Source: Nitrospira sp. (lineage in GTDB: Bacteria > Nitrospirota > Nitrospiria > Nitrospirales > Nitrospiraceae). From it: a stretch of 64,000 bases of DNA. The position numbers were made by a program, and so were the translations under genes. Numbering within the stretch: the stretch's first letter is position 1; every line of letters begins with the position of its first letter. Positions 11,915 to 16,685 of the stretch are shown here, piece by piece. Location: NCBI GenBank assembly GCA_024331045.1, contig JANDJC010000009.1, positions 1 to 64,000 of the forward strand, read 5' to 3'. The notes beneath the pieces were generated by a model, which was given only the letters and a program-made list of their open reading frames with translations, had not been told where the DNA came from and searched no databases.

Positions 11915-13375
11915 ATGCAACTGTTGAAGGGTGTTTTGAAATGGTGGCTGGTGCTGTCAGCGATTATGTTTGCGGGAGAGGCTGGGGCGGGGCAAAGGGA
12001 AGACAGGTTGACCGGGCACGAGGTTCCCCCGGTCCCCTTTACACTGGAGGAAGTGCACTCGTGGATTGACCGGTCTCACCCGCTTCTTAAGGGAGCGGGC
12101 GCTGAGAAAACAATCGCACGAGGCAAGCTCCTCAAGGCGCTGGGGGCGTTTGATCCCGTGTTGGTGAACGACATGGAGCTTGAGCGGTTCATTTCGAGCA
12201 GTAATCCGGAAAAGGGCACGCAAACGGTCGGGTACAACGACACGTTGTTTGAGGCTCGTCATCCGTGGGGAGTTCGTGGCAGCGTCGGCTATCGACGGGC
12301 AATCGGCGAGGCGCGGATTCCCGACTTGGCGTTCGGTGAGAATCAGCAACTGGTGGTGGGAGGATTCCTCCCGTTGCTGCGGGGGCTGTTGGTGAACCCT
12401 GAGCGGGCGGAGTTGCAACGATCCGAGTTGGCAGCGCCTCTGGCGGACATCAAGATCGCGCAGACCAGGCAGGATCTGTTTTTGGCCGCTGCTCATCAGT
12501 TTTGGGAGTGGGTCGCGGCCGCTAAAATGCTGGAGGTTGAGCAACAGGCATTGGCCGTAGCGGAAGAGCGGCATCGTCAGATGGATGAACGGGCAAAGGC
12601 GGGTGCCATTGCCCCCATCGACGTCGTCGAGGCGGCGCAAGAGGTGCATCGTCGTCGAGAGGTGGTCATCGCGGCGCGCCGCCGACTTGAGCAGGAACAA
12701 TTCAAGCTCTCACTGTTTCTGTGGGAGAACGGTGCCCCCACCACGCCGCCTCTCGAGCGAGTACCGGAATTTCCTGCGGTGAGTTGGGTTCCGAATCTTG
12801 AAGAGATTCGATGGCACAAACTTGCAGCGGTCAAGGAGCGGCCGGAGGTCAAAGAACTGGAAGTGGAGGCAAAGATCAATCACATCGATCTGGCTCTCGC
12901 TAAGAACAACCTGCTGCCCAACTTGGACCTAGAGGCAGCGCCGGCGCGTGCGCCGGAGAAGTTCGTGCTGGGACTCGGATATCGGTTTGGTGTTGAGCTG
13001 CGGTTTCCGATTTTCCAACGAAGAGGCCGCGGCGAGGTGTTGCAGGCGCAGGGACAGGCGGCGCGGTTGGTAATGGCCAAGGCGTTTCGAGAAAATCAAG
13101 TGGTGGTCGATGTGGACAATGCCCTCTCGGCCATCGAGCGTGCCAAGGAGCGTATTGAGGAAGCCTCGCAAGCCCTTCGCTTGGCCGAAATTGTTGAGGA
13201 AGGGGAACGGTATCGGTTTGGTCTCGGTGCGAGCACGGTGTTGTTCGTTAATCTTCGAGAGCGGAACACTGTTGAGGCAAAAAGACAAGTGATTGTAGCG
13301 AGGGCCGAGTTTCAGAAGGCGGTGGCTTCGTATCAGTGGGCAATCGGAGGGTGGGCCAAGGCGCCGGCGGAATGA
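11915..13375 (+). CDS. TolC-family outer membrane efflux protein
   Basis: Signal peptide MQLLKGVLKWWLVLSAIMFAGEAGA; long coiled-coil repeats; ALSAIERAKERIEEASQALRLAEIVEEGERYRFGLGASTVLFVNLRERNTVEAKRQVIVA. Confidence 0.85.
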   Translation: MQLLKGVLKWWLVLSAIMFAGEAGAGQREDRLTGHEVPPVPFTLEEVHSWIDRSHPLLKGAGAEKTIARGKLLKALGAFDPVLVNDMELERFISSSNPEKGTQTVGYNDTLFEARHPWGVRGSVGYRRAIGEARIPDLAFGENQQLVVGGFLPLLRGLLVNPERAELQRSELAAPLADIKIAQTRQDLFLAAAHQFWEWVAAAKMLEVEQQALAVAEERHRQMDERAKAGAIAPIDVVEAAQEVHRRREVVIAARRRLEQEQFKLSLFLWENGAPTTPPLERVPEFPAVSWVPNLEEIRWHKLAAVKERPEVKELEVEAKINHIDLALAKNNLLPNLDLEAAPARAPEKFVLGLGYRFGVELRFPIFQRRGRGEVLQAQGQAARLVMAKAFRENQVVVDVDNALSAIERAKERIEEASQALRLAEIVEEGERYRFGLGASTVLFVNLRERNTVEAKRQVIVARAEFQKAVASYQWAIGGWAKAPAE

Positions 13376-13518: not shown

Positions 13519-15213
13519 ATGGGACAAGCGCCAGGTGCTGAACATCTGTCCCTCGTTTACGTGCTGAGGTTGTTCGCCCGTTTTCTGCAGCATGAGCGAA
13601 GGATTCTCGTGCTCGTCGTGTCGTATTCGCTGGTGGTCGGACTGTTTTCGCTCGTCGTTCCGCTCACGGTTCAGGAACTGGTCAATACCTTTTCGTTCGC
13701 CATTCAGCCGGTGATGATTGCGACCCTCACGATCATCATGGTACTCGTGTTGCTCTTTGTTGGCGCTTTTCGGGCGTTGCAATACTATGCCGTGGAAGTC
13801 TTGCAGCGCCGTCTGTTCGTACGGACGGCGTTTGCCATGGCTCAAAAGCTCCCGCATATCCGATTTCAAGGGTTTCGTCCCCACCTTTCCAACTCCTTTG
13901 TGGAAACGGTCTTCATGCAACGTGCCTTGGCGACATTGCTGGTGGACCTGGTTCATGTCGTCATCGGCGGCATGATCGGGATGACGATCCTAGTGTTCTA
14001 CCATCCGTACTTTCTGTTGTTTAACGGCGCGATGCTGGCGGGATCCCTCCTCGTGTTTTTTGGCTTGTCACGGGGAGGGCTGCGGACGACCGTTGACATG
14101 TCTCATGCCAAATACGAGATGCTCCACTGGCTTCAGCAGCTCTCACAGAACCTGCTCCATGTCAAGGCTACCGACAGCGAGACGTTGGTGATCCAAAAGA
14201 CGGACGAATTGGCCAAGCGGTACATCGATTGCCGCCGCTCCCGCTTTACCGTACTGTTCCGGCAATTTCTCGCGTCGGTGGGTGGGCAGGCAGTTGCGCA
14301 CAGCAGTGCCCTGGCGCTGGCCGGATGGCTCTTGACCATCGACCAATTAACGATCGGCCAATTGGTGGCGGTGGAAGTCGTGGTGGCCGGCCTGTTAGTG
14401 AACTTCGATGCGGTCGTCAAAAGCGTGGGGCAGGTGTATTTCTTCTTTACGGCCTTGGTCGAACTGGATACGTTTTCATTACTGCCGACTGACCACCGCC
14501 GCCGGCCTCCCACGATGATGGTGACGTTGCCGGATCCCGCTGTCCACGGCATTCGCGTCTCGTGCCGGGAGATGGGCTTGACGGTTGAGGGGATGGCGGT
14601 GTTTGCGAATTTCAATCTGGAGGTGGGGCCCGGCGAGAAAATTGCGATCCATGCGGCGACGACGACGGCGCGCATGGGCCTGGCCAAAATCCTAGCCGGC
14701 TTGGAAATGCCGACCAGCGGCGTCATTACCTATAACGACGTCGATCTCCGGCACCTTGACTTGAGCATCATCAATCGGTGTCGGGGCTTTATGATCGATT
14801 CGCAACTTTCGCTCATCGATGGCACGATCGCGGATAATATTGTGTGGCGGCGTCCCTACGTGTCGTACGAGGACATTCAATGGGCGCTCCGGTTGACCAT
14901 GCTCCGGGAAGAAGTGGGGAGGTTGCCGGAGGGCATCAACTCGGATATCAGGGCGCTGGGCGAGATTCCCGCGCCGACCCACGTGTTGCGCATTCTGCTT
15001 GCGCGGGCAATCGTGGGGAGGCCGCGGTTATTGGTGTGCGATGGTCTGATCCACGACATGCAGCCTTCTCTGCGGGACGCCATTATTCGACGGCTGTGTT
15101 CGAAGGATGAGCCGTGGACAGTCATCTTTGTCTCCAATGATCCGGATTTGACCCCCCATGTTGACCGGTGCCTCTCGCTGGGTGATACCCCTGTTCCCCT
15201 GTTGCCGGGCTAA
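13519..15213 (+). CDS. ABC exporter (fused TMD-NBD, type I secretion-like) with motif-degenerate nucleotide-binding domain
   Basis: ABC_membrane-like N-half; NBD-like C-half GPGEKIAIHAATTTARMGLAKILAGLEMPTSGVITYNDVDLRHLDLSIINRCRGFM... with Walker A, signature and H-loop not canonical. Confidence 0.82.
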   Translation: MGQAPGAEHLSLVYVLRLFARFLQHERRILVLVVSYSLVVGLFSLVVPLTVQELVNTFSFAIQPVMIATLTIIMVLVLLFVGAFRALQYYAVEVLQRRLFVRTAFAMAQKLPHIRFQGFRPHLSNSFVETVFMQRALATLLVDLVHVVIGGMIGMTILVFYHPYFLLFNGAMLAGSLLVFFGLSRGGLRTTVDMSHAKYEMLHWLQQLSQNLLHVKATDSETLVIQKTDELAKRYIDCRRSRFTVLFRQFLASVGGQAVAHSSALALAGWLLTIDQLTIGQLVAVEVVVAGLLVNFDAVVKSVGQVYFFFTALVELDTFSLLPTDHRRRPPTMMVTLPDPAVHGIRVSCREMGLTVEGMAVFANFNLEVGPGEKIAIHAATTTARMGLAKILAGLEMPTSGVITYNDVDLRHLDLSIINRCRGFMIDSQLSLIDGTIADNIVWRRPYVSYEDIQWALRLTMLREEVGRLPEGINSDIRALGEIPAPTHVLRILLARAIVGRPRLLVCDGLIHDMQPSLRDAIIRRLCSKDEPWTVIFVSNDPDLTPHVDRCLSLGDTPVPLLPG

Positions 15214-15257: not shown

Positions 15258-16685
15258 TCATTTCGCGGTTTTCCAGGTCTTGGGCAATAATGTATCGAGC
15301 AACGTATGGGACCGCTCCTCATAGTCTGGCGGGAACAGATTGAATCGACGCCATAGCTCGTACCAGAGAGGCACGCGATTTAAGATGACCCAGCCCATCA
15401 CTTTCGTTCCCTGTCGCACGTGAGATTGGTCGGGCCAGGGACGACTCTCTGGATCGGGCACGACCCAAAACCGGTAGTTGCCCTTGCCGTCATCCATCTG
15501 ATCGACCACCTTGATGACGCCGTCGTAGGTGCCGGCCATCAATTCGGGCCAGGCGGGCAAGGGGATTGCCGGGATGCCGTAGAATAGAAGCTTGACCTTT
15601 CTACCGACGTTTAAGAGGGGCGCGTCCAATCCATCCGCCGTCATCTCAATGGCTCGATCAAAACTGGTCGGCGCGATCAGCACCAGCACATCGCCCTGGC
15701 GAACAGTCTCTCCCACGCCGACCTTGGCCATCTTAACAACGGTGCCGTCGGCGGGAGCCGTGATCTGGCCAGCCAGGCGACGTTGCTCCGCGTTCGAAAG
15801 GCGCAGGAGGATGTCGGCGAGCTGGTCCTCCACTCTGGCGGCCTCTAGCATCGAGGCGTCGCGGGCGGCTTCTGCCTCAAAGAGGCGCTGCAACATTTCC
15901 GCGTTCACCTGATCCCGACCAAAGTCCAAGGACTTCATGGCCTGTTCCGCCGCCTGAAGACTGGCTTGCGCCGCTTCCAAGTCGGCTCGGCTGGCAATGT
16001 CGGTTTGAATGGCCAATTCCACTTCCCGCTCCGACACCAATCCTCTTTTGGCCAATTGCTTATGCCGTTCCAAGTTCAAATTCGCTGTCATGGCGGCGAT
16101 TTTCGCGGCTTCGACCCGTTGGCGAGCTTCTCGGACTTTGTTTTCCGCTTCCATCACTCGGGCTTCAGCCGAGGGGACGGCGGCGTTTAGCAGATTGCGC
16201 ATCTCGCCGATCCGTTTGTCGAGTTGAGCGACGCGCGCCAGCGCGGCGGTCTTCGTTTTCTCCAGCGCCAGCTTCCGTTGCTCCAGAAACATGAGTAGGC
16301 CTGGCGACATGAAATTGGGATCGGTGTCATCCAGTTCGAGAATCACATCGCCTTGCTTGACTGGCTCACCTTCGAACACGTGCCATTTCTTCAGTCGTCC
16401 GCTGATTTGGGCTTCAATTTCCTGGGGACGTTCGTAAGGTGTGTACGCGGATAGTTGGCCGGTGACCGTCACCGTTTGCGTCCATGGTACGAAGATGATG
16501 GTCAGGAGAAAGCACAAGACCAGCAGGAATGGCAGGCGGGCGGAGAACCGCCACTTACGCGGAAGTTGTGCCGCCTCCCACGATGGCAACTTGGTAGAGA
16601 TGGCCAGCTCGTCGACGGAGAGCTCGTCGTCTGTCTCTCCATGGACAAGGGTGCGAAGCTGCGTGCTCAAGGATGAACGGGCCAC
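15258..16685 (-). CDS. HlyD-family secretion/adaptor protein
   Basis: TVTVTGQLSAYTPYERPQEIEAQISGRLKKWHVFEGEPVKQGDVILELDDTDP...GQITAPADGTVVKMAKVGVGETVRQGDVLVLIAP; GTG start. Confidence 0.85.
   Translation of the reverse strand: MARSSLSTQLRTLVHGETDDELSVDELAISTKLPSWEAAQLPRKWRFSARLPFLLVLCFLLTIIFVPWTQTVTVTGQLSAYTPYERPQEIEAQISGRLKKWHVFEGEPVKQGDVILELDDTDPNFMSPGLLMFLEQRKLALEKTKTAALARVAQLDKRIGEMRNLLNAAVPSAEARVMEAENKVREARQRVEAAKIAAMTANLNLERHKQLAKRGLVSEREVELAIQTDIASRADLEAAQASLQAAEQAMKSLDFGRDQVNAEMLQRLFEAEAARDASMLEAARVEDQLADILLRLSNAEQRRLAGQITAPADGTVVKMAKVGVGETVRQGDVLVLIAPTSFDRAIEMTADGLDAPLLNVGRKVKLLFYGIPAIPLPAWPELMAGTYDGVIKVVDQMDDGKGNYRFWVVPDPESRPWPDQSHVRQGTKVMGWVILNRVPLWYELWRRFNLFPPDYEERSHTLLDTLLPKTWKTAK

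Follow-up and report, generated by a model that had tools for sequence, protein, structure and literature searches.

ATP-driven transport is the defining property of ABC exporters; the question whether their membrane domains can also act as secondary transporters has hitherto been addressed with engineered MsbA and LmrA truncations. The described systems closest to the locus reported here are the exporters HlyB, PrtD and LssB/LapB, in which a six-helix membrane domain is joined to a C-terminal nucleotide-binding domain (NBD) and HlyD and TolC genes lie beside the exporter gene. Degenerate motif residues in an exporter NBD are known from the heterodimers TAP, TmrAB and MsRv1273c/72c, all of which keep one working composite site. 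The NBD has also been dispensed with entirely: the NBD-less membrane domain of MsbA (MsbA-MD) performs proton-coupled drug transport, and that of LmrA (LmrA-MD) does likewise (PMC4979069). The SecA_DEAD-associated HlyD modules have T1SS-type adaptor genes but no evident ABC motor, and combine a SecA-like ATPase with HlyD/M50-like proteins (Kamneva et al. 2015, PMC4452313). For T1SS-like exporters that are fully degenerate or naturally NBD-less, we found no description in the open-access literature.

Here we analyse an exporter gene, P0001, from a window of 64,000 nucleotides of a Nitrospira genome (assembly GCA_024331045.1, contig JANDJC010000009.1, positions 1 to 64,000), together with its homologues. 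The P0001 family shares the domain order and the gene neighbours of HlyB, PrtD and LssB/LapB, but lacks their catalytic ATPase motifs and the N-terminal C39 or C39-like domain, is separated from canonical exporters at 98–99% SH-aLRT, and in three relatives has no NBD at all. With TAP, TmrAB and MsRv1273c/72c it has degenerate motif residues in common, whereas P0001 has lost every motif rather than those of one site and has no linked canonical partner. The NBD-less members resemble MsbA-MD and LmrA-MD in being a membrane domain alone; those constructs, however, were engineered from another exporter family that is not tripartite, and their function was shown in the laboratory, while the copies described here are known from genes, lost the NBD naturally and are linked to HlyD and TolC. 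What the P0001 loci share with the SecA_DEAD-associated modules is adaptor genes that lack an evident ABC motor; they differ in that no SecA-like gene is among their recurring typed neighbours.

Results

An exporter fold without catalytic motifs

The reading frame of P0001 is complete, as originally predicted, and starts 143 bases past the end of a TolC-family gene (Table 1). Its best sequence match by phmmer is AaPrtD (5l22, 1.9e-17), HlyB NBDs are matched at about 4e-12, and NCBIfam ABC-exporter models match it as well. The ABC_tran model (PF00005), in contrast, gives only 17.9 bits against a gathering cut-off of 25, so that P0001 is not among the 38 PF00005 matches of its own genome; a paralogue in the same genome scores 37.1 and a basal member of the family (L116) 51.7. 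The AlphaFold model has the architecture of an exporter, a six-helix membrane domain fused to a C-terminal NBD fold, with PDB matches to HlyB, PrtD and PCAT1, and most NBD blocks are modelled with a pLDDT of 83–92. A fold search ranked the HlyB/D complexes 7sgr and 8dck highest among solved structures (E about 1e-19), followed by ComA, PCAT1, Atm1 and TmrAB; how the domains are placed relative to each other is uncertain in the model, hence whole-chain TM-scores of about 0.5. The resemblance to an exporter NBD, first noticed by eye, is thus borne out by both the phmmer matches and the predicted structure.

None of the motifs of a functional NBD (Walker A, the Walker B glutamate, LSGGQ and the H-loop histidine) is present in P0001. 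When it is aligned with canonical exporters of the same genus, its Walker A stretch lies on GRSGSGKS with the loss of all three P-loop glycines and the changes K to R and S to M, P484–H488 lies on LSGGQ, the DE of Walker B reads DG, and the H-loop histidine has become N540. The original prediction that all four had been replaced was right on each.

It had also placed the gene between TolC and HlyD. Both genes are indeed there, but HlyD is encoded on the minus strand, so that it runs towards the ABC gene and is not in the same transcript, a point that the prediction had missed. This layout (TolC> ABC> <HlyD) is common to nine close relatives. Because other relatives mostly carry the three genes on one strand, as HlyD-TolC-ABC or TolC-ABC-HlyD, the convergent arrangement is derived.

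Table 1. Positions of P0001, its domains and motifs, its neighbours in the window, and the NBD-less homologues
Feature	Position	Strand	Basis and remarks
P0001, type-I-secretion-like ABC half-exporter with non-catalytic NBD	13519..15213	+	ATG start; 564 aa; AlphaFold pLDDT 74.6; best PDB match 7sgr
P0001 membrane domain, residues about 12–320, six long helices	13552..14478	+	DSSP of the model; the part kept alone in NBD-less homologues
P0001 TM4-TM5 loop, residues 210–224, position of coupling helix 2	14146..14190	+	Identity 0.62 among NBD-bearing homologues, 0.22 between NBD-less and NBD-bearing
P0001 pseudo-NBD, residues about 345–555	14551..15183	+	PF00005 score below cut-off, phmmer, alignment; family dN/dS about 0.05
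P0001 Walker A position, residues 379–386, AATTTARM (canonical GxxGxGKS)	14653..14676	+	Alignment
P0001 signature position, residues 484–488, PAPTH (canonical LSGGQ)	14968..14982	+	Alignment
P0001 Walker B, residues 505–509, LVCDG	15031..15045	+	Asp508 kept; catalytic Glu replaced by Gly509, Gly in 86/86
P0001 H-loop position, residue 540, Asn for His	15136..15138	+	His in 0/86; Asp541 invariant, 86/86
TolC-family outer-membrane channel (OEP)	11915..13375 (start codon 11915; ORF from 11876)	+	PF02321, 4.3e-35; co-directional with the ABC gene
HlyD-family periplasmic adaptor	15258..16685	-	PF13437, 1e-10; TIGR01843, 3.9e-24; convergent with the ABC gene
Stand-alone ABC-exporter membrane domains	L081:4444-5454, L082:7707-8744, L177:5852-6862		After HlyD and TolC, before DabB/DabA

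Motif loss is order-wide and the degenerate domain is under selection

Homologues of P0001 turned up at 37–81% identity when the proteins of 60 relatives were searched, and every full-length one has lost the same motifs; the orthologue itself is present, at 68–81% identity and with the same changes, in ten other genomes. The family was detected by profile search in 77 of 296 genomes of the phylum, all of them from two families of the order to which the window belongs. A search for homologues sharing the losses had been proposed with the original prediction; across that order, a membrane-domain search found a homologue in 162 of 237 genomes. Canonical motifs in close relatives would have pointed to local decay; among 86 full-length homologues, which include near relatives and so do not represent 86 independent events, the position of the catalytic glutamate is glycine throughout, and neither LSGGQ nor the H-loop histidine is found in any. 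The replacement residues G509, H512 and D541 are each fixed in 86/86. Other positions vary more, with K in 70, R in 14 and G in 2 at the Walker A lysine, and the Walker B aspartate kept in 79. GK[ST] even survives in about ten members, most of which belong to other genera of the family and some of which come from loci with tandem copies (for example GTSTGKTT in L116 and HTSTGKST in L119). Read from these alignments, motif loss is graded across the family, and P0001 stands at the far end.

The degenerate domain is nevertheless constrained: median pairwise dN/dS (NG86, 132 pairs) is 0.053 for the NBD, with a maximum of 0.24, and 0.075 for the membrane domain, and P0001 against its nearest relatives gives about 0.06–0.09. 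The pseudo-NBD is under purifying selection, though not as an ordinary ATPase, and the loss of its motifs is ancient and order-wide, not a local decay. The original picture of a pseudo-ATPase exporter tied to TolC and HlyD is well supported; it did not anticipate that the family spans the order or has members without an NBD.

A few split or frame-shifted copies of the pseudo-ABC gene were also seen (L050:6873-8657, L079:3040-4465 and L120:7382-9478), with a stop or a change of frame between or within the domains, and may reflect decay or assembly errors.

Some homologues have no NBD

In three species of one genus of a sister family, whose genomes are 95–100% complete, the protein ends directly after the membrane domain (G057/L081, 337 aa; G055/L082, 346 aa; G407/L177, 337 aa, the last 92% identical to that of L081). 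A tblastn search found no NBD remnant at these loci, where DabB and then DabA come next. Upstream lie LysR, HlyD and TolC genes; HlyD and TolC are intact in L081 and L082, and in L177 the upstream genes were recognised as HlyD- and TolC-sized reading frames of high identity to those of L081. The dN/dS of the NBD-less membrane domains is 0.21–0.28 versus 0.09–0.18 for neighbouring genes, indicating selection that is purifying but somewhat relaxed.

Over most of the membrane domain, NBD-less and NBD-bearing proteins are about as similar to each other as NBD-bearing proteins are among themselves. The sharp exception is residues 210–224, where identity between the two groups collapses (Table 1), and there are weaker dips, for instance at residues 105–119 (0.38 versus 0.57). 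The AlphaFold model places these two stretches at the loops TM4-TM5 and TM2-TM3 or adjacent to them, and it is at these loops that the coupling helices of type IV exporters contact the NBD. Since it is the NBD-docking loop that diverged in the NBD-less copies, loss of the NBD relaxed mainly that loop. The docking loop is kept wherever the pseudo-NBD is kept, a pattern which argues that the pseudo-NBD is an accessory still touching the membrane domain. The membrane domain itself stays conserved without an NBD, save at the docking loop, and for this reason the comparison points to it as the functional unit, with hydrolysis by an NBD of its own being dispensable in the NBD-less species.

Neighbouring genes

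Of 84 homologous loci, 66 have both HlyD and TolC next to the ABC gene, supplying the adaptor and channel of a T1SS, and 17 hold an orphan ABC copy with neither. Seven of these orphans (L043, L050, L117, L118, L119, L128 and L131) are directly adjoined by a PAS histidine kinase and a sigma-54 response regulator. The genome of the window has a second, 56% identical copy (G000:C67, L031), which follows three tandem TolC genes and precedes HlyD; the same arrangement of three TolC-family genes ahead of one pseudo-ABC and one HlyD (L031:2050-8791 in this genome) is seen in most of L033–L041 and L066–L078. Several other genera have a second, diverged pseudo-ABC gene in tandem with the first (L113, L115, L116, L120, L134, L139 and L143), both copies being degenerate; the pair sits behind HlyD-TolC and suggests a heterodimer of two pseudo-ATPases. 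In many genera a four-helix-bundle sensory protein follows the operon, and in others a LysR regulator is near.

Pfam typing of the recurring neighbours brought up neither a canonical ABC gene nor a C39 peptidase or an RTX-type substrate gene, and none of the recurring neighbours of the homologous loci is a conserved candidate for a secreted substrate. A canonical ABC partner inside the locus was accordingly rejected, as was a role in anti-phage defence, for which PADLOC gave no match. No viral relatives were found.

Relatives on plasmids of other phyla

The spread of the family outside the phylum was taken from plasmid records alone, where tblastn at 1e-15 returned 21 records, from Persicobacter, Aureibacter and Riemerella (Bacteroidota) and from Sphingomonadales; with a less degenerate query, hundreds of records in the same collection match canonical exporters. 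HlyD and TolC directly follow the gene in all annotated cases inspected. These cross-phylum links rest on 24–29% identity. The plasmid-borne NBDs are degenerate to varying degree, that of Riemerella having kept Walker A and the glutamate and lost the signature and the histidine. Trees of the whole protein, the membrane domain and the NBD all recover the split between canonical and pseudo-exporters noted above; they are quick trees with long branches, and the whole-protein tree, though not the domain trees, included can_L155, a sequence in the wrong frame with an extreme branch. In the NBD-only tree the Riemerella NBD falls beside canonical ones, and NBD decay may have occurred more than once within one membrane-domain family.

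Discussion

We think it fairly probable that P0001 is the inner-membrane component of a tripartite system (ABC/HlyD/TolC) resembling type I secretion that has given up its ATPase, its conduit being gradient-driven or gated and its NBD serving as a non-catalytic clamp. Two membrane domains would dimerise as in HlyB and PrtD, as homodimers or, where tandem paralogues occur, as heterodimers, and the dimer would dock HlyD and TolC to give a trans-envelope path without ATP hydrolysis of its own. Export would then be secondary-active, driven by an ion or proton gradient, or else the substrate's own gradient would drive it through a gated passive conduit. Proton or ion drive is plausible because the NBD-less membrane domains of MsbA and LmrA transport drugs coupled to protons. 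The pseudo-NBD would act on the coupling helices as a non-catalytic clamp or regulatory platform, possibly still sensing nucleotide in members with GK[ST]; the persistence of K/R and of the Walker B aspartate in most members, and of GK[ST] in about ten, leaves room for nucleotide binding. Other points that weigh against this reading are the orphan copies without HlyD and TolC, the somewhat relaxed selection on the NBD-less membrane domains, the low identity behind the cross-phylum links, and the origin of the MsbA-MD result in a truncation engineered from a different exporter family. Considered as a whole, the exporter probably works without burning ATP, and a gradient-driven transporter is at least as likely as the regulated channel or scaffold with TolC of the original prediction. 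More tentatively, and as a possibility we would not put at even chances, the lineage may have switched its energy source, the motor having decayed to a clamp and been deleted in some species to leave an ion-gradient-driven ABC-fold exporter feeding HlyD/TolC directly.

Instead, the pseudo-ATPase might form a TAP- or TmrAB-like heterodimer with a canonical half-exporter whose gene lies outside the locus. Heterodimers with a degenerate site have ample precedent among type I exporters (PMC7756269), the searched genomes do encode canonical exporters of the MsbA type, and the tandem second copies of some genera suggest heterodimers; yet those second copies are degenerate too, no canonical ABC gene recurs in the locus, and a long LssB-type T1SS exporter is missing from some genomes that have the pseudo-ABC, G009 (95% complete) being one. 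In P0001-type proteins, moreover, Walker A and signature, the two halves of every composite site, are both lost, and the NBD-less species have lost the conservation at coupling helix 2 that such pairing would need. The earlier suggestion of energising by a partner is weakened by the lack of a canonical ABC in the locus, the degenerate tandem partners and the three species without an NBD, and we regard it as unlikely. We judge it just as unlikely that the protein is no transporter but a membrane scaffold or sensor reporting envelope or transport state to regulators, as the kinase and sigma-54 regulator beside orphan copies, the sensory protein after the operon and the nearby LysR genes could be taken to mean; the constant partners in the subfamily of the window are TolC and HlyD, which make sense only around a conduit, and the trans-membrane path with its strongly conserved helices is kept even without the NBD.

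Hydrolysis by an unconventional ATPase, through the novel fixed residues D508, H512, D541 and K/R385, would agree with the low dN/dS of the NBD, the invariance of G509, H512 and D541, and the presence of K/R385 in 84/86. We consider it a poor candidate, for in P0001 the P-loop glycines, catalytic glutamate, signature and H-loop are all gone together and three relatives dispense with the entire NBD. Pseudogenisation or an assembly error confined to this genome was rejected on the order-wide conservation and the dN/dS, and we give it almost no weight: the assembly is incomplete, in 109 contigs, and a few homologues are frameshifted or split (L050, L079 and the first copy in L120), but the reading frame of P0001 is intact, it is constrained relative to its nearest relatives, and its changes recur in ten other genomes.

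The gradient-driven or gated exporter that we favour belongs to a natural, vertically conserved series that runs from a near-complete Walker A through lost motifs to no NBD; the membrane domain is the same throughout, and HlyD/TolC usually accompany it. This series makes the question of secondary transport testable in real proteins. In Bacteroidota, Sphingomonadales and the phylum of the window, genes carrying the annotation "ABC transporter ATP-binding protein" or "type I secretion" may in some cases not encode ATPases.

A link to DabAB inorganic-carbon transport or pH homeostasis is possible, but because DabA is absent from most loci the DabAB association is no more than a lead, as is that with LysR. 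DabA (PF10070) lies beside the pseudo-ABC/HlyD/TolC operon in two phyla, at L042, L081 and L082 and on a Sphingobium plasmid (L170:1362-8156).
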